Virus record (IMG/VR): IMGVR_UViG_3300038723_000138 | Coordinates: 1-21,688 of that record | Reading direction: 5' to 3' (one strand) | Source: a virus | Length of the DNA stretch: 21,688 nt | Shown: positions 211 to 8,133 of the stretch, piece by piece | Layout of the letters: every line of letters begins with the position of its first letter | Position numbering within the stretch: position 1 is the first letter of the stretch | Notes under the pieces: generated by a model | What the model was told of the DNA's origin: nothing | The model's database searches: none | Seen by the model: only the letters and a program-made list of their open reading frames with translations | Translations under genes and position numbers: made by a program

Positions 211-828
211 ATGAGCCTATTAATAGTTACTCCCATGTATGGGGGAATGTGCCAAGCACCATATTTCAAATCCTGTCTTGAATTACAGGAAGCCTTCTTA
301 ACGAATGGGCTGGATTTTGATTTCTTGATCACGACCAATGAAAGCCTAATCACAAGGGCAAGAAATACATCCGTTGCTAAATTTTTAAAAACGGATTTTG
401 AATACATGATGTTTATAGATGGGGATATTGAGTTTTCCCCTGATGATGTGGCGAAGCTCTGGAATCTGGAAGCAGATGTGTGCTGTGGTGCTTATCCAAT
501 GAAAAAGATGGGTAAGGGAACAACGGCATGGAAGGATGGTGTTCAAGTGCCTTTAGAGGAATTTAAAGAAGTCACTCCGATAGATTATGCAGGAACAGGG
601 TTTTTGATGATCTCTCGTAAAGCGATTGAAAAGATGATTGAAAGTTATCCCGAAACCAAACATGAAGAATCTATTGGTGATTGTTGGGCGTTATTCGACA
701 CTGAAATCAAACATGGTGTTTATTTAAGTGAAGATTATTCCTTCTGTGATAAATGGCGTGAGATTGGCGGGGAGATTCTCCTAGACCCCTCTATTAAATT
801 AAAACACTACGGTATGTATGGATATTGA
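211..828 (+). CDS. Phage glycosyltransferase-like protein
   Basis: A 205-residue GT-A fold protein. The N-terminus (LLIVTPMYGG) has the hydrophobic strand and turn seen where sugar-nucleotide transferases bind nucleotide. A metal-binding DxD motif sits in FIDGD at residues 68-72, followed by a short acceptor region with AGTGFLMISR around residue 127. This resembles the short Anp1/GT-A-type transferases found in many phages, which would transfer a sugar from a nucleotide donor to DNA, a virion protein or a host surface glycan; the substrate cannot be read from sequence. The start is supported by AAGGG five bases upstream. The 3' end overlaps TerL by 11 bases, so it is translated with the packaging genes. 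The family call is fairly secure; the role is open. Confidence 0.72.
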   Translation: MSLLIVTPMYGGMCQAPYFKSCLELQEAFLTNGLDFDFLITTNESLITRARNTSVAKFLKTDFEYMMFIDGDIEFSPDDVAKLWNLEADVCCGAYPMKKMGKGTTAWKDGVQVPLEEFKEVTPIDYAGTGFLMISRKAIEKMIESYPETKHEESIGDCWALFDTEIKHGVYLSEDYSFCDKWREIGGEILLDPSIKLKHYGMYGY

Positions 829-3133
829 TCCTATCTCCATCCTTGATGGCGCGTTAGGTGATAACAAACTCTCTACCTACATCCCATACGGTCATCCTGA
901 CACGTTATGTCCCGAAGGTATTGTCTGGCAGAAAAAGAATGAAATAGGCGAATGGAGTGAGTGGTCTAACCACCCATGGCAGTGGGAATTCCACCAAGCC
1001 GGAAAAACGTACACACAACGAATGTTGGAATGTGCGAATCGTGTGGGCAAATGTGTGACTGGAGATCAGCTAATTGATCATCCTGACGGCACAAAGACAA
1101 AAGCCGTCGATCTTTACAACAATGGTGAGCCTTTTGATGTGCTTTCTTGGGATGGAGACAAGATTGTTTCTGCGGAGGCATGTCTACCGATAAAAAAAGC
1201 CACGCAGCCTTGTTATCGCGTTTATTTATCTAGTGGGGATTATTTTGAGTGCGCCTCTGGCCACCGCGTTTTAACTTCCCAAGGCTATGACTTCGTAGGA
1301 CGGATTCTCTCATCCTTTGCTTGCCTTCAGGCGAATGATTCGGCGTTCTTCCAGTTAATTCGTGCCTTAAGTGGTTGGCGTTACACGAAAAAACTTGCAG
1401 GTTTTCTGGTCGGTTGTCTATCGGATTACCGTTTATATGGTGAACAACTTCGTCAGGGGTTAAAAGACGACCAAGCTGGTTTTCCATCACAAGACGGTGT
1501 TCCGCAACATACCTCTGTTTTGTGCAGTGCGGGTGTTCAGGATAATAAATATACCTATAACCCTTCAGCATTTTTACTCCACCCTTCCAGTCAGGGTGGC
1601 CTGAACCGCTTCGAGGGCCGGTTCTTTGGGTTTTTATTTTGTGTTTATAACAACATTGCTGCACACCTCGGCGGCTTACGCCAAGTTTTTTTGCGACTTC
1701 TTCCTGAGTTAGTTTCTCGTTTTCTATCAGGTTGCGAACAGAATCAACATCAATACGCGGCATTACGGTCTCCAAATGGATGTGTAAACAAAATTGTAGC
1801 ATACAACGTTATTAGCGCACAACCAGTTTATGACTTCACTGTTATTCAATACGGCAATTATGTAGCTGGCGGAGCAATACATCACAACACTTACTCTGCC
1901 GCACCCGAAGTCGCTTATCACATGACGGGCTTATATCCTGACTGGTGGGAAGGACGGCGTTTTAACAAACCTGTATTAGTGTGGACAGGCTCACCCACTA
2001 ACGAAACCTCAAGAGACATTGTTCAAAAAGCCTTAATTGGTGGAACAGGTCAGGATTTAGGGACAGGGTATATACCGAAAGATTTATTTGTTGGTAAACC
2101 TAATATGAGACAGGCGGGTGTCTCTAATGTAGTTGATCAGTTTAAAGTCCGTCACATCTCTGGCGGTGTTTCGCAATGTATTTTAAAAACCTACGAACAG
2201 GGATGGAGGAAGTGGCAAGGCACACAACCTGATGTTATTTGGTTAGACGAAGAACCCGATCAGTCATCAGATCAAAAACCGATCTTTAGTGAAGCCCTAA
2301 CCCGACTCTTGACATCTCAAGGGATCATGATGGTGACGTTCACACCCTTACTGGGACAGACCGATCTCGTTATCCACTTTGAAAAGGGCGGCCCTGGTAT
2401 TTGGTTAGGCAGAGCGACTTGGGATGATGCACCCCATCTTAACGAAAGATTAAAAGCGGAGTTAATCGCTTCTTATCCTGAATGGCAACGTGAAGCCCGT
2501 ACTAAAGGTGTGCCGATGATGGGTGAGGGAAGAATCTTCACAGAGGATGAGTCAAATATTATTTGTGAGCCATTTCAAATCCCACCTCACTATGCGCGTA
2601 TTTGTGGGATTGATTTTGGTTTAGACCATCCCGCCGCAGGCGCATGGATAGCATGGGATCGAGATACGGACACGATCTATTTATACGACTGTTACCGTAA
2701 ATCAGGCGAACAGCCCTTATATCACGCAGAGGCAATTAAGCGACGAGGAAATATCCCTGTCGCATGGCCTCACGACGGAGCAGATCGAGAAAAAGGATCA
2801 GGTATAACCTTAAAAGACCAGTACCAAAAACATGGCGTGAACATGTTAGGTCGATCCGCAAGATATAAAAACGACAAAGGTGGATCACAACCTCAATGGC
2901 CTGTGATTGAAGAAATTATTGAAAGAGAAAAAACAGGTCGTTTTAAAGCGTTCTCAAATTGTATTGAGTATCTTTCAGAGAGAAGAACCTACCATACGAA
3001 AGACGGAAAAATTATTGATCGTGGAGACGACACATTAAAAGCCACTTTCTACGCAGTGATGATGAAGCGTTACGCCGCTTCTCAAACCATGATTAAAAAC
3101 AAACCAAACCTAACACCCATAATGAGAATGTAA
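818..3133 (+). CDS. terL: Terminase large subunit interrupted by an intein
   Basis: DNA-packaging motor: an N-terminal ATPase and a C-terminal RNase H-like nuclease that cuts concatemers. The precursor is 771 residues. Removing residues 79-357 (the intein) gives 492 residues, a normal TerL length. After splicing the P-loop reads ANRVGK|TYSAAPE. Walker B is DVIWLDEE (472-479), the coupling motif is TFTPLLG (507-513), and nuclease acidic residues lie in GIDFG (D599), PHDGADR (D653) and RGDD (near 737). No small terminase gene is visible in the window. The gene starts inside the end of the glycosyltransferase gene and its stop overlaps the next start (TAATG). The motor cannot hydrolyse ATP until the intein is removed, because the intein separates the P-loop Lys from its Thr. 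Confidence 0.93.
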   Translation: MDIDPISILDGALGDNKLSTYIPYGHPDTLCPEGIVWQKKNEIGEWSEWSNHPWQWEFHQAGKTYTQRMLECANRVGKCVTGDQLIDHPDGTKTKAVDLYNNGEPFDVLSWDGDKIVSAEACLPIKKATQPCYRVYLSSGDYFECASGHRVLTSQGYDFVGRILSSFACLQANDSAFFQLIRALSGWRYTKKLAGFLVGCLSDYRLYGEQLRQGLKDDQAGFPSQDGVPQHTSVLCSAGVQDNKYTYNPSAFLLHPSSQGGLNRFEGRFFGFLFCVYNNIAAHLGGLRQVFLRLLPELVSRFLSGCEQNQHQYAALRSPNGCVNKIVAYNVISAQPVYDFTVIQYGNYVAGGAIHHNTYSAAPEVAYHMTGLYPDWWEGRRFNKPVLVWTGSPTNETSRDIVQKALIGGTGQDLGTGYIPKDLFVGKPNMRQAGVSNVVDQFKVRHISGGVSQCILKTYEQGWRKWQGTQPDVIWLDEEPDQSSDQKPIFSEALTRLLTSQGIMMVTFTPLLGQTDLVIHFEKGGPGIWLGRATWDDAPHLNERLKAELIASYPEWQREARTKGVPMMGEGRIFTEDESNIICEPFQIPPHYARICGIDFGLDHPAAGAWIAWDRDTDTIYLYDCYRKSGEQPLYHAEAIKRRGNIPVAWPHDGADREKGSGITLKDQYQKHGVNMLGRSARYKNDKGGSQPQWPVIEEIIEREKTGRFKAFSNCIEYLSERRTYHTKDGKIIDRGDDTLKATFYAVMMKRYAASQTMIKNKPNLTPIMRM
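1230..1763 (-). CDS. HNH homing endonuclease encoded antisense inside the intein
   Basis: A 177-residue protein from the ATG at 1763. An N-terminal helix-turn-helix (about residues 12-45, LTQEEVAKKLGVSRRGVQQC) is followed by an HNH_3-type nuclease domain (about 68-135). Key residues are EHRLVME near 89-95, the His pair H108/H109 in VVHHINGNPIDN, N121 in PENLQ, and H131 in NANHLRH. A basic tail ends at residue 177. The start is chosen because GGAG lies six bases upstream (1773-1770); an in-frame ATG at 1802 has no such site. It would cut intein-free terL alleles and drive intein homing. Its last 24 or so codons lie opposite intein block B. All key HNH residues look intact, so it is probably active, unlike many decayed intein nucleases. 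Confidence 0.9.
   Translation of the reverse strand: MPRIDVDSVRNLIENEKLTQEEVAKKLGVSRRGVQQCCYKHKIKTQRTGPRSGSGHPDWKGGVKMLKGYRYIYYPEHPHCTKQRYVAEHRLVMENQLGRLLTPDEVVHHINGNPIDNRPENLQVFSCNANHLRHELTGRTPNHSPEGKQRMRESVLRSHSLGKLKRGGQRRTQNNPH
1793..1822 (-). promoter_or_regulatory. Candidate antisense promoter for the HNH gene
   Basis: On the minus strand TTGTGC (1822-1817) lies 18 bases before TACAAT (1798-1793), and the latter carries an extended -10 (TGC directly before it). The predicted start near 1786 leaves a leader of about 23 bases with the GGAG site before the ATG at 1763. The -35 matches consensus at only three of six positions, so this is a candidate only. It lies within the codons for the intein's C-terminal splicing block. 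Confidence 0.4.
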
Positions 3134-3504
3134 TGGCAACAGGACAAGATTTAGAAAAACATTTTGTAGTAAATGGTATGAATCCTGAAAAACGTGTTTC
3201 GTATAAAGGACTCGACATCTACCTTGCTGACTCCGGCCCTCATTACGACGTAAAAGATCGCGGCTTTACAAAAGATGAAATGGAGCAATTCGGATTAGGT
3301 TATTACATGACCGTATGGGCAATTGGTGTGCATGGAAAAGTGACAGGTTATATACCTTTATTCTTTGAAGCCTTACACGATATGGAATTATCAGATCGTA
3401 AAACAGCCCGTCTTAATTCCGCAGAACTACAAGCGAAAGGGTTTATTAACCACGCATTAAAAGTAGGCTTATTTAATAAAGAGAAGTTATATGCCGCAGC
3501 TTAG
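3133..3504 (+). CDS. Unknown small protein between terminase and portal
   Basis: A 123-residue protein I do not recognise. It is soluble, without an evident signal or membrane segment, with a conserved-looking core (KRVSYKGLDIYLADSGPHYDVKD and GYYMTVWAIGVHGKVTGYIPLFFEALHDME) and a charged C-terminal half. Its start overlaps the TerL stop by one base (TAATG) and its end overlaps the portal start by 14 bases, so it is translationally coupled on both sides. Position suggests a packaging or head accessory role, but nothing in the sequence proves that. Confidence 0.85.
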   Translation: MATGQDLEKHFVVNGMNPEKRVSYKGLDIYLADSGPHYDVKDRGFTKDEMEQFGLGYYMTVWAIGVHGKVTGYIPLFFEALHDMELSDRKTARLNSAELQAKGFINHALKVGLFNKEKLYAAA

Positions 3505-5293
3505 AAAAACTGACTTCAACCAAGTAGCGGATTATATCTGTGATGAGTTAGAGACTCGTCGTACTGATCGAAAAGACTTCGATAAAGAAATGAAGGAGAT
3601 TGATCGCCAATTAGCGATGAAGCCAGACATCTCCCATAAACTAGACGGTAACGGGCGACCTGTTCCTGATTTAGCGTGGCTACCAGAAGTTGAACTCCCA
3701 TTACAAAGCCAGACGTTAGAAGTTTTAACGGCAGATTCAAGACGCATGATGCTACCTGATTCGGGCACATGGTTTGAGTCTATCGCAATGGTCGATGATG
3801 AGTATTTAAGTAAAGTTGATTTTGAATCTTTTATACCAGGCGACGAAAACGAAGTCCCTTCTTTAATCACCCAAGACAACGCTAATCAATTAGTCACGGG
3901 TGTATTAAATCACTGGCATGGGCAGTATGACTTTGGACACCATATTGATCTAATCAACGCCGAGTCGTTTAAATATGGGATGGGGATCGGCATCCCTAAA
4001 ATGGTAACAAAGAATGTCTTAATGCACACAGCTAAGGGAGTTATAAAACAAAACCAACGCTTTCCTGTATTAATACCAGGTTCAATTAAAAACACTTATC
4101 TCGACACAAAGTTCAATGCTGTAATGTGTGAAGGGTTAGCGTTAGGGCCAAGTGAAATCTCATGTAAAAAAATGAGATTAGAAGATTTAAAGAAAGCCGC
4201 TAATAAAGGATCAAAAGACCCATTAAACGAAAATGGCGGCTGGATGCCTGCGGCACTGAAAGACTTAACGCCCGATAAAAATAATTTAGTTGAAGTAGTG
4301 GAAATGGATGGTGACTTTGTTGTTCCACGTAAAACCACTGATAATATTTTAATTGAAAACGCGATTATCACTGTTGCTATAGGTCAAGGCGATAAGAAAG
4401 TTGTCAGGATAAGATATAAGAAGTTCGACTTCCCTACTAAAATCAGATTCCCTTATCACTGTGAGCATATTGACAATCCTTACTCCACTTCTCCATTAAG
4501 AAAAGGCTCGCCGATTCAAAAAGCAGCCGTTCACGCATTAAGTAAGTATATGGAAGTGGCTGCGTTACATGCGGGTGCGATTGTTCAATATGATCGTGAC
4601 GACCAAACCTTCGCAAGTGAAGGCGGCCCACGAATACATCCTTACGCGCAATGGGGCACGACAGGCGAAACCAAAATACACCAAATTGGTGATCCGCAAG
4701 CGATGTTCAATACGTATGTTGGTCTGTTAAGCCAGTATTCTGATGTAACAGGCATTAACGCACCAAGATTAGGCGCACAAACCACCTCTCACACCACGGC
4801 GTTTGCAAAAGAAGCGGAGATCAATCGAGGCACAGTGAGAACGGTTGATTATGTCCGTAACACCCTCAAAGGCCCTTTAAATCAATGGTTATCCATTGCT
4901 TACAAGATGGGTCGTGAAGAAATGAAGAAGGATGTGATCTATATCGAGCCTTATAACGGGTTTGTTGAACTAGATAAAAACCGATTACCAGAAGAAGCTA
5001 TTTTTAATATTTATGGTTCAGGCACACCCGCAGAAGAAGCACAGAAAGAACAAAAACGCATGACTGCATTACAAACCGCGATGCAGATGGATCAATTAAA
5101 TATCCAACTAGGTAATCAACCTATTTTAGATTTAGAAAAAGGCATTGAACAGGTATTAAGAAAAGGAGAGTGGACGGATGTCGACGCTATCACCCGAACA
5201 AAAGAAGTTTCTCAAGGAGCTGAAGATCAATCCCTTATGGGCACAGATATTGGAAGCGTTGCAGAGGCCGACCTTAACGCCTTACAAGCCTAA
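3491..5293 (+). CDS. Portal (head-tail connector) protein
   Basis: A 600-residue protein that follows the terminase, as portals of T7-like and related podoviruses do, and of the usual length for that group. The N-terminal 35 residues are a charged helix (DELETRRTDRKDFDKEMKEI). A central region includes PYHCEHIDNPYSTSPLRKGSPIQ, and later GINAPRLGAQTTSHTTAFAKEAEINRG resembles the stem/clip helices of this family. The C-terminus is helical and acidic. The portal forms the dodecameric ring through which DNA enters and leaves and on which TerL docks. The start ATG lies in the end of the preceding gene; GAGAAG upstream is a weak ribosome site, so coupling probably matters. Confidence 0.85.
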   Translation: MPQLRKTDFNQVADYICDELETRRTDRKDFDKEMKEIDRQLAMKPDISHKLDGNGRPVPDLAWLPEVELPLQSQTLEVLTADSRRMMLPDSGTWFESIAMVDDEYLSKVDFESFIPGDENEVPSLITQDNANQLVTGVLNHWHGQYDFGHHIDLINAESFKYGMGIGIPKMVTKNVLMHTAKGVIKQNQRFPVLIPGSIKNTYLDTKFNAVMCEGLALGPSEISCKKMRLEDLKKAANKGSKDPLNENGGWMPAALKDLTPDKNNLVEVVEMDGDFVVPRKTTDNILIENAIITVAIGQGDKKVVRIRYKKFDFPTKIRFPYHCEHIDNPYSTSPLRKGSPIQKAAVHALSKYMEVAALHAGAIVQYDRDDQTFASEGGPRIHPYAQWGTTGETKIHQIGDPQAMFNTYVGLLSQYSDVTGINAPRLGAQTTSHTTAFAKEAEINRGTVRTVDYVRNTLKGPLNQWLSIAYKMGREEMKKDVIYIEPYNGFVELDKNRLPEEAIFNIYGSGTPAEEAQKEQKRMTALQTAMQMDQLNIQLGNQPILDLEKGIEQVLRKGEWTDVDAITRTKEVSQGAEDQSLMGTDIGSVAEADLNALQA

Positions 5294-5390
5294 ACAAGAT
5301 TCAGATCAGTTTCATAAGTTTATTTATGAAAGTGGTCGAATACGTGAAAACGAAGATTTAATTAACCAACTAAAGGTGAATTATGACTGA
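5178..5390 (+). CDS. Small overlapping protein between portal and scaffold
   Basis: A 70-residue protein whose start overlaps the portal 3' end by 116 bases in another frame. The ATG at 5178 has GGAG about nine bases upstream (AAAAGGAGAGTGGACGG), which is better than most starts here, and the stop overlaps the scaffold start by eight bases. The sequence is helical (LSPEQKKFLKELKINPLWAQILEAL) with a charged end; the function is unknown. Small genes in this place are common in podovirus-like phages, which together with the ribosome site supports real expression. Confidence 0.75.
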   Translation: MSTLSPEQKKFLKELKINPLWAQILEALQRPTLTPYKPKQDSDQFHKFIYESGRIRENEDLINQLKVNYD

Positions 5391-5958
5391 GCAAACCGTG
5401 ACTACGGAAACCGACGTAGAGTCAGTGACATCTACAGAGGAGAGTGGTGCACAGGATGATCTGGATAAATTACTCGCCGATTTTGACGAGGAAACATCTA
5501 GTCAATCCGAGCAATCGGATCAAGGGTCTGAACAGCCCACCACTTCTCTTGATGATGAAGATAAACAATTCCTTCAGAGTCTGAAAGAACAGGAAACTGA
5601 ACGACAGATAAACGAAGAAATTGATCGCATGTCAGAACATGTGCCAGAGGACGTAACTATCCCTAACGATGTATTAAGGGCAATGGTTGAGTATAAGGCA
5701 GCAAAAAACCCAAAGATTGCCGACGCATTTATGAAGCGGCATCAAAATCCCGAAGCATGGGGTAAGGTGTCTAAATCATTAGTGTCAGAAATATCCAAAG
5801 GTTTTCAAAAACAACCTGACAAAAAATCCACTCAGGATAGAGAAGCGGTGATAGCGGCTGTACAGAGTGCATCCACATCCTCGCAAGAAGAATCCCAGCC
5901 TGATTTCAGTAAAATGAATGACGCGCAATACCAGAAATGGAAAAGGGAGAACTTGTAG
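5383..5958 (+). CDS. Scaffolding protein
   Basis: A 191-residue protein with an acidic, low-complexity N-terminal half rich in Glu, Asp, Ser and Thr and a helical, charged C-terminal half ending MNDAQYQKWKRENL. It sits directly upstream of the major capsid gene, the usual place for a scaffold that nucleates procapsid assembly and then leaves the shell; the basic C-terminus is the usual capsid-binding part. No protease motif is visible. AAAGGTG lies before the start ATG, and the first codons overlap the preceding gene. The call rests on composition, size and position, as scaffolds share little sequence. Confidence 0.72.
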   Translation: MTEQTVTTETDVESVTSTEESGAQDDLDKLLADFDEETSSQSEQSDQGSEQPTTSLDDEDKQFLQSLKEQETERQINEEIDRMSEHVPEDVTIPNDVLRAMVEYKAAKNPKIADAFMKRHQNPEAWGKVSKSLVSEISKGFQKQPDKKSTQDREAVIAAVQSASTSSQEESQPDFSKMNDAQYQKWKRENL

Positions 5959-5984
5959 CGGGGATAACGTCATGGAGGTAAATC

Positions 5985-7061
5985 ATGGCTCAAACTATTT
6001 CCGCAACAGATACCGAGCTACAAAAGCCGGTAAATGCGATCTTTCAGCAGGACTTTTTAAGAAATGCTAAAGCTCGCTGCCCATATTTCATGGGCACACA
6101 AAAAGGTGAAGTAACTGAACACTCAGGCACTTCAACAATCAAATGGCGACGAATTGAGAACTTAACGCCGACCACCACTGCTTTAAGTGAATTAACGGGT
6201 ACTGCATCTTATATGCAGGGTCGTGATTCTGTTGCAGCATCTTTCACAGATGTAACCGCAACGGTAGGCAAGTATGGTCAGTTTTATATTCTTAATGAAG
6301 AAGCTGATTTGTTTAACTACAACGGTCAAACCGCTAAATTGGTTGAAACCCTTGCTATTTCAGCAGGTCGTTCACTTAACCAACTACAACGTAACGTCGT
6401 AGAAGATAACGCTACTGTTGTTTATGCAAACGGTGGTGCTGATTCTGCAGTGAATACGGTGATTGCTGTTGGTGATGTTCAAAATGTCATTAACACATTA
6501 GATCGTAACTCTGCAATGACGTTTACGCCAATGACCACAGGCTCTACCAACATCGGCACTGTTCCTGTTCTACCTGCTTATTGGGGTTTAACTCACCCTG
6601 ACGTAGCAGTGGATATTTCAGGTTTATCTGGTTTTACTTCTGTTGAGAAGTATGCAGGTCAGGTTGACACTGTAATGGGTGAATTTGGAACGCTAAGTGT
6701 TGCTGGTCAAGCTGTACGTTTTGTATCAAGTGAAGATGCTTCTATTGATACTGACGTAGGTGCGACAGGTGGTTCAGGTGTTCGTGAAACCACTAACTCA
6801 AAAGCCGATCTGTATCACACTGTTGTCTACGGTATGGACGCAGTTGGTTCTGTGGGTATGGGTGAAGAACACACTGACGGTATCTACCGAGCAGGTGATT
6901 CAATGGACTCCATTGAACTGATCTTGAAAGAGAAAGGTTCTGGCGGTACATCCGATCCGTTGAATGAAATTTCAACACTTGGTTGGAAGTCATGGCACAG
7001 TGGCGCAATCCTCAATGCAAATTGGGCACGCACCATTCGTTCCGCAGCTTCTAGCTTATAA
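5985..7061 (+). CDS. Major capsid protein, N4-gp56 family
   Basis: A 358-residue HK97-fold capsid protein. The N-terminus (QQDFLRNAKARCPYFMGTQKGEVTEHSGTST) and the segment IKWRRIENLTPTTTALSELTG (residues 50-70) are typical of the N4-gp56-like capsid family, as is YGQFYILNEEADLF near residue 96. It has the best ribosome site in the head operon: GGAGGT six bases before ATG, in keeping with the need for hundreds of copies. It is followed by a GC-rich hairpin that may cut or protect the transcript. No cleaved delta domain is apparent, in line with a separate scaffold gene upstream. Confidence 0.88.
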   Translation: MAQTISATDTELQKPVNAIFQQDFLRNAKARCPYFMGTQKGEVTEHSGTSTIKWRRIENLTPTTTALSELTGTASYMQGRDSVAASFTDVTATVGKYGQFYILNEEADLFNYNGQTAKLVETLAISAGRSLNQLQRNVVEDNATVVYANGGADSAVNTVIAVGDVQNVINTLDRNSAMTFTPMTTGSTNIGTVPVLPAYWGLTHPDVAVDISGLSGFTSVEKYAGQVDTVMGEFGTLSVAGQAVRFVSSEDASIDTDVGATGGSGVRETTNSKADLYHTVVYGMDAVGSVGMGEEHTDGIYRAGDSMDSIELILKEKGSGGTSDPLNEISTLGWKSWHSGAILNANWARTIRSAASSL

Positions 7062-7452: not shown

Positions 7453-8133
7453 TTAATTTATCTCAGCATAGCGCTTGCCTTTTTCAATAAGGCAAATTGT
7501 GGCAGCAGAAACACCATATTTCTTGCCTAATTCAGAATATCTTAAACCATTCTTACGAAACCTTTTACCGTTTAGGATTGTTTTTTCTTTTAAAATGGCT
7601 GATTTTATCTCTTTAACTTCTTTGTCAGACAAATTTCTGCATTTAGAGCGCATTTCGTCCCCGCGCTCAAGCCAGAGTTTTTTATTGGCATCACTCAAAG
7701 CTTTAACAACGTGAGGAGGTTTGGGCTTACCCTTGCTTTGTAAGATAGATTTTTTTATTGCGTCTTTATTAGGCTTGTGCCCGTTTTTTTTGAGGGAATC
7801 AGATATTTTCTTCTTGGTTTTATCCGAGTGCTTATAGCCTCTGTTTGTTTCTGCTGTTATACGGATGTTATAACCATTTTTTACAGAATCAAACGAACTA
7901 ATCCAGAAATCTTCTCTTTCAGAGAGACTGTATTCAGGAATGTTAGATTCAGCAGATTCCAGCACAAAAGAGGCTTCACCGTGCTTGTTCCAAGATCCTT
8001 GTAGTTTGTAATTTGGATGCTTGTTTCTTCTTAATAGGCTGCGGTGTTCATTCCATCTTTTTTTAGGTCTAGTTGTAGACCCGATATATCTTTTACCAGA
8101 GGTAATGTTGTGAATTACATATATAAAAGCCAT
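7453..8133 (-). CDS. GIY-YIG homing endonuclease, free-standing, antisense
   Basis: A 226-residue modular homing nuclease. The GIY half of the catalytic motif is FIYVI (residues 3-7, Gly replaced by Phe) and the YIG half is RYIGST (15-20). The catalytic Arg is in KKRWNEH (R26), and the acidic residue is in SEREDFWI (72-78, probably E74). NUMOD3-like DNA-binding repeats follow (HSDKTKKKISDSLKK, about 102-116, and a weaker copy after it). A C-terminal helix-turn-helix lies at about 198-222 (RYSELGKKYGVSAATICLIEKGK). It points against all neighbouring late genes and fills the gap between two of them exactly. It is no intron or intein: the flanking genes are complete, so it is an intergenic insertion. 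The start is fixed by the GIY motif directly after the Met. All catalytic positions other than the Gly look intact. Confidence 0.93.
   Translation of the reverse strand: MAFIYVIHNITSGKRYIGSTTRPKKRWNEHRSLLRRNKHPNYKLQGSWNKHGEASFVLESAESNIPEYSLSEREDFWISSFDSVKNGYNIRITAETNRGYKHSDKTKKKISDSLKKNGHKPNKDAIKKSILQSKGKPKPPHVVKALSDANKKLWLERGDEMRSKCRNLSDKEVKEIKSAILKEKTILNGKRFRKNGLRYSELGKKYGVSAATICLIEKGKRYAEIN

Follow-up and report, generated by a model that had tools for sequence, protein, structure and literature searches.

In inteins such as PI-SceI and PI-PfuI, the endonuclease is an in-frame domain that lies between the two halves of the Hint domain. The intein described here, which interrupts the terminase large subunit gene (terL) of a 21.7-kb virus record (IMGVR_UViG_3300038723_000138, analyzed over its whole stretch of 21,688 nucleotides and called the window below), resembles these inteins in its class-1 residues, its Hint fold, its insertion into a conserved active site, the empty sites of its relatives, and the placement of an endonuclease between the Hint halves. 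Unlike in these inteins, the endonuclease does not belong to the intein polypeptide: a separate HNH gene, with expression signals of its own, encodes it on the opposite strand. In 2009, Dassa et al. reportedly described fractured genes, i.e., split inteins with intervening free-standing endonuclease genes. There too an independent endonuclease gene is tied to intein halves, but the host gene is divided into two ORFs, whereas the window's host gene is a single contiguous 771-aa ORF that overlaps the antisense gene, and a split intein or fractured gene was rejected on that ground.

Antisense homing endonuclease genes are known from the nuclear rDNA group I introns Dsq.L2066 and Dir.S956-2 (PMC9548176). 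These introns share with our locus the pairing of a splicing element with a separately expressed homing endonuclease gene on the opposite strand. However, they are eukaryotic, splice as RNA, encode a His-Cys endonuclease, and carry it in a peripheral loop that needs no open frame, whereas in the window intein both strands must be open reading frames. The ShiLan domain of mycobacteriophage methylases harbors a hidden HNH endonuclease, encoded out of frame but on the same strand (PMC11855218). As at our locus, an open insertion within a phage gene conceals the HNH, and the HNH domain is homologous to ours (about 39-43% identity), but it comes without a splicing domain or a detectable RBS; the window locus, with its HNH on the opposite strand and a Hint domain present, is not of that type. 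The rDNA introns and the ShiLan HNH are the nearest known systems. An earlier note on this DNA, which recognized the arrangement from the letters alone, knew of no described case, and our search of the open-access literature, a body that excludes preprints and most subscription papers, turned up no account of an intein with an antisense endonuclease gene. The neighboring 'HNH' and 'DNA helicase' annotations of Streptomyces phage BRock, considered as a nested case, turned out to be merely adjacent genes.

The intein-bearing terL gene lies at 818-3133 on the plus strand and encodes 771 aa, assigned to the terminase large subunit by PHROG and to Terminase_6N/6C, which were found in the C-extein (1889-3130, plus strand). 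The N-extein (818-1051, plus strand) ends within the Walker A motif, ANRVGK/T (a slash marks the insertion point throughout), which is broken between K and T by the 279 residues of the intein (1052-1888, plus strand; Cys1 to Asn279, +1 Thr). The junctions read GK/CVTGDQ...GAIHHN/TYSAAP, and the DNA of the empty site reads ...GTGGGCAAA/ACTTACTCT.... As the earlier note had proposed, intein-bearing and intein-free terL alleles were compared. Some 50 close relatives of the TerL have no insert at precisely this position, where most of them read RVGK/T, so that the insertion is precise relative to intein-less alleles, as in class-1 inteins.

The splicing blocks that the earlier note had read in the sequence hold up. 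All class-1 residues are present in the window intein (Cys1, His71, His278-Asn279, and Thr+1), and a comparison of 48 diverse inteins shows no variation at Cys1, the block B His, the block F Asp (Asp261), or Asn279. The block B motif is CASGH, i.e., the His is present while Ala replaces the usual Thr of TxxH. The Pfam Intein_splicing match is weak (E 4e-4, under its cut-off), and the TIGRFAM intein score is also below its cut-off. In the AlphaFold (AF2) model, residues 1-90 and about 245-279 have pLDDT values of 92-98, while most residues between fall below 50, so that the Hint fold is predicted to be intact and the insert disordered. The N-terminal Hint half (1052-1321, plus strand, with block A Cys1 and block B His71) is modeled at a pLDDT of about 92-98 and the C-terminal half (1784-1888, plus strand, with block F Asp261 and His278-Asn279) at 96-97; the segment between them (1322-1783, plus strand, residues about 91-244), which lies opposite the HNH gene, is predicted to be mostly disordered. 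The confident part of the model resembles RecA and DnaB inteins in structure (VIA Z 19, rmsd 1.9 over 125 residues), with a VIA Z of 19.2 to the Mtu RecA intein, in keeping with the Hint fold of a class-1 intein. No nuclease family was found in the intein polypeptide with Pfam or TIGRFAM, in line with the earlier reading of the spacer and at odds with a large intein carrying an in-frame endonuclease. Used as a query, the intein matched nothing in annotated phages. Together, the splice residues and the predicted fold suggest that the TerL precursor undergoes protein splicing.

The antisense gene runs from 1763 to 1230 on the minus strand, wholly inside the intein, and encodes a 177-aa HTH-HNH protein. 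The longest ORF extends over 1230-1802 (minus strand), but the conserved start with a Shine-Dalgarno sequence is the ATG at 1763, so the view that the complement of 1763-1230 encodes a complete nuclease with its own Shine-Dalgarno stands. Pfam assigns the product to HNH_3 (E 1e-9) with an N-terminal HTH (E 2e-4), and PHROG places it in HNH families. It thus has both the catalytic motif and the DNA-binding domain of an HNH homing endonuclease, and the catalytic residues are invariant in 50 nucleases. The protein is modeled with a pLDDT of 86, and the fold search returned no significant PDB match, with I-HmuI among the weak ones.

An assembly inversion within 1230-1802, which would have undone this description, was ruled out: a second contig (L001) is identical to the window over 303-6130, and homologous contigs, about 150 others, keep the arrangement. 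A chance open frame was ruled out as well, by synonymous shuffling and by free HNH controls. When the codons of the window HNH were shuffled synonymously, the intein frame acquired 7.4 stops on average and none of 2000 shuffles was stop-free, against zero stops observed. Across loci, the same procedure gave an expected mean of about 3-9 stops in the antisense frame where none was observed, and the probability of no stop ranged from <0.0005 to 0.03 per locus for loci with a full-length aligned HNH (four loci shortened by an alignment offset carry no information). The corresponding frame contains 2-17 stops in nine HNH relatives that stand free or lie in introns. A group I or group II intron was rejected, because the window had no Rfam hit even at E values up to 1, and the absence of a group I ribozyme core at that threshold also sets the locus apart from group I introns with an antisense endonuclease gene.

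The earlier note had called for a search for the nested frame in relatives, where its absence or breakage would have counted against the idea; it is widely intact. Among the best 80 HNH relatives in IMG/VR, retrieved by a search that scored the HNH frame alone and was blind to the intein, all 80 lie antisense within one long intein-bearing ORF (most 600-900 aa, some clipped by a contig end) and in the same relative frame, with HNH codon position 1 opposite intein position 1, 2 opposite 3, and 3 opposite 2. HNH ORFs are open throughout these 80 loci. Three additional searches yielded 101 loci, 99 of them nested in the same way and the remaining two being weak matches. The total is 180 loci in about 150 distinct contigs (counted by contig name), forming 76 clusters at 80% HNH identity, and the plus frame is stop-free in all of the approximately 150 contigs. 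In one relative (L002), the whole arrangement is kept with both frames open, although the HNH is only 51% and the intein 33% identical to those of the window. A scan of genome contigs gave one weak relative only.

An independent search used a block-G DNA pattern that carries no HNH information and retrieved 17 loci, of which 14 have an antisense HNH, one is clipped by a contig end, and two occupy the same terL site as mini-inteins (L161, about 146 aa; L164, about 134 aa), with neither strand encoding an HNH. These results place the HNH in the slot that the endonuclease domain occupies in other inteins. Insertions in this class fall at two main sites of the same P-loop, GK/T and, three codons upstream, NR/SGKT. 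A further antisense-HNH intein was found in a 3022-aa ORF (L163, also listed as L245; 3-9068, reverse complement), where it interrupts a helicase-like P-loop (GDG/C...HHN/TGLGK), and the class therefore extends beyond terminases. The recurrence of the class, its two adjacent P-loop sites, the non-TerL host, and the annotated cultured examples discussed below had escaped the earlier note. By eye, one terminase ORF (L149, 5947-8565, reverse complement) appears to contain two inteins, an antisense-HNH intein at Walker A and, further along, a second with a LAGLIDADG-like in-frame domain.

Six separate sequence pairs were used to compare selection on the two strands. In the Hint flanks, changes are most frequent at the third codon position of the intein; in the overlap they peak at intein position 2, the third position of the HNH codons. 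This shift in codon position between flanks and overlap is strongly significant (chi-square p about 2e-46). dN/dS is 0.07-0.28 for the HNH frame and 0.02-0.25 for the Hint flanks. For the intein frame within the overlap it is 1.4-3.6; overlapping frames bias such ratios, so this value shows just that the frame is not conserved there. Within the overlap, it is the HNH protein that selection conserves, and the intein frame facing it is held open and no more, which is consistent with its predicted disorder. The suggestion that the intein serves as a coding shelter for the nuclease is supported by this combination of disorder and lack of constraint.

Upstream of the HNH start, the window has a candidate extended -10 element, TATGCTACAAT, at 1803-1793 (minus strand), with a weak -35 (TTGTGC) 18 bases upstream of the -10 hexamer. 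The ATG at 1763 is preceded by TTGGAGACCGTA, including a Shine-Dalgarno-like TGGAG at approximately 1771-1775 (minus strand), a match of 4 bases only. A standard promoter scan of 1000-3200 found nothing. Promoters were scored by their match to TTGACA and TATAAT at a spacing of 16-18, with a bonus for TG, and intein codons shuffled synonymously served as the control. The window's score of 9.5 is not significant alone. Nevertheless, across 74 clusters (partly related and so not fully independent), 40% score at least 10 upstream of the HNH start versus 5.6% of shuffles (p about 1e-18), and 43% have a Shine-Dalgarno match of at least 5 bases versus 11% of shuffles (p about 7e-13). By these scores, a clear promoter or Shine-Dalgarno is missing from about half of the clusters. 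The over-representation of both signals and the purifying selection on the HNH frame support separate expression of the nuclease from the minus strand, as the earlier note had supposed. In the L103 family, the HNH start region is immediately preceded by TATGCTATAAT, an extended -10 of unusual quality within intein coding DNA.

The distribution of the element indicates movement between hosts. HNHs sharing 60-76% identity are found in TerLs with about 40% identity or less, or with no detectable similarity, and because HNH similarity so far exceeds TerL similarity, lateral spread is indicated. For the C-extein of the window's TerL, identity is 66% to intein-less relatives and no more than 60% to intein-bearing ones. 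In a tree with the sampled free relatives, the antisense HNHs group into a single separate clade (support 90/89), so a single origin of the HNH-intein association is possible, though not proved. The HNH enzyme very probably spreads the insert. Cleavage of the empty terL site by the HNH would fit the empty sites, the incongruence, and the function of the family, and homing to exactly this P-loop site may likewise be proposed.

We considered whether the overlap might be fortuitous, with the HNH as the sole gene, TerL either disrupted or joined in some other way (by an intron or a bypass), and the plus frame open by chance. The missing protein-level constraint on the intein frame in the overlap and the intein profile scores under their cut-offs speak for this, but the absence of stops where 3-9 are expected, the strong purifying selection on the Hint flanks with their invariant splice residues, the Hint fold at Z 19, the lack of any Rfam intron match up to E 1, and the mini-inteins at the same site make it extremely unlikely. 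Another explanation is that the HNH is a decaying leftover of past homing. Many inteins pass through endonuclease decay, and the two mini-inteins without an HNH could be read in that way. Nevertheless, an HNH frame with the low dN/dS found in all six pairs, invariant catalytic residues, and ORFs open throughout would hardly be expected of a decaying gene, and we regard this as very unlikely.

A somewhat better case can be made for domestication, in which the HNH is expressed antisense but has lost homing and, e.g., aids terminase cutting or regulates terL by antisense transcription. An antisense transcript could indeed interfere with terL, and HNH proteins adjoining terminases can act in packaging, as with the GVE2 HNH (PMC5304195) and the HK97 case discussed in PMC10448857. 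In opposition to this, the element is sporadic, with close relatives lacking it, HNH and TerL similarities are incongruent, and the same class occurs in the helicase-like P-loop of L163; we therefore hold domestication to be unlikely. We consider it highly probable that the element is a mobile intein whose homing depends on a separate antisense HNH protein in the usual slot of the in-frame endonuclease.

Under this mobile-intein explanation, TerL would be translated from the plus strand with the intein, which the Hint halves would then splice out, and the peptide opposite the HNH gene would be a disordered linker whose sole requirement is to contain no stops. On the minus strand, a promoter and a Shine-Dalgarno sequence, both located within the DNA that codes for the intein's C-terminal portion, would drive production of the HNH protein. 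In a mixed infection, this protein would cut intein-less terL alleles at the P-loop codons, and repair of the cut terL would copy the whole intein together with its antisense gene. This is the most likely course, and its translation, splicing, and minus-strand HNH steps are supported by sequence, fold, selection, and expression signals. It is also likely, if less firmly so, that such inteins are a wide and previously undescribed class, each with an overlapping antisense endonuclease gene that has its own promoter, moving among highly diverged terminases and at least one other P-loop ATPase.

In such an element, the two functions of a mobile intein are separated onto the two strands of one piece of DNA, which also provides a clear example of two long protein genes that overlap antisense and are under separable selection. 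The arrangement suggests a route by which an intein could gain a nuclease without protein fusion, and thus a possible answer to how inteins acquire endonucleases: an independent gene inserts, and an open frame suffices.

Cultured phages carry the element as well. The HNH is present at 94-100% identity in the Pectobacterium phages Taid, Pappous, Ymer, Abuela, Sabo, Koroua, and Amona and in Dickeya phage Setonix, and in Taid and Ymer the antisense frame was read directly inside the intein-bearing TerL ORF. In these two (L057/L268), a 754-aa 'hypothetical protein' beside the portal gene is the intein-bearing TerL, and the antisense HNH is unannotated. The Ymer-genus paper annotates the large terminase by hand and mentions neither the intein nor the HNH (PMC11445585). 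Pseudoalteromonas phage PHS3 (KX912252, L267) has the same architecture as the window, with an intact 708-aa intein-bearing TerL frame at 2164-4287 open on the strand opposite the HNH. Its record differs in that the HNH is annotated, no intein is, and TerL is cut off at the HNH (2161-3336) because the antisense HNH was taken for the gene at this place. The overlap explains why terminases are mis-annotated in isolates, and probably also in metagenomes, with TerL cut short or labeled 'hypothetical' and the HNH overlooked. With cultured carriers available (Ymer, Taid, and other Pectobacterium phages, and PHS3), splicing, antisense expression, and homing are directly testable.

Two minor observations concern the rest of the record. 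Positions 1-17 of the window read GTTTCCCAGTCACGATC, which we take to be a random-amplification library primer; L001 opens with the identical 17 bases, and the first bases of the record are probably a library artefact. Elsewhere, between virion genes, 7453-8133 (minus strand) encodes a free-standing GIY-YIG endonuclease with a NUMOD3 motif, which is probably a second homing endonuclease gene of this phage.
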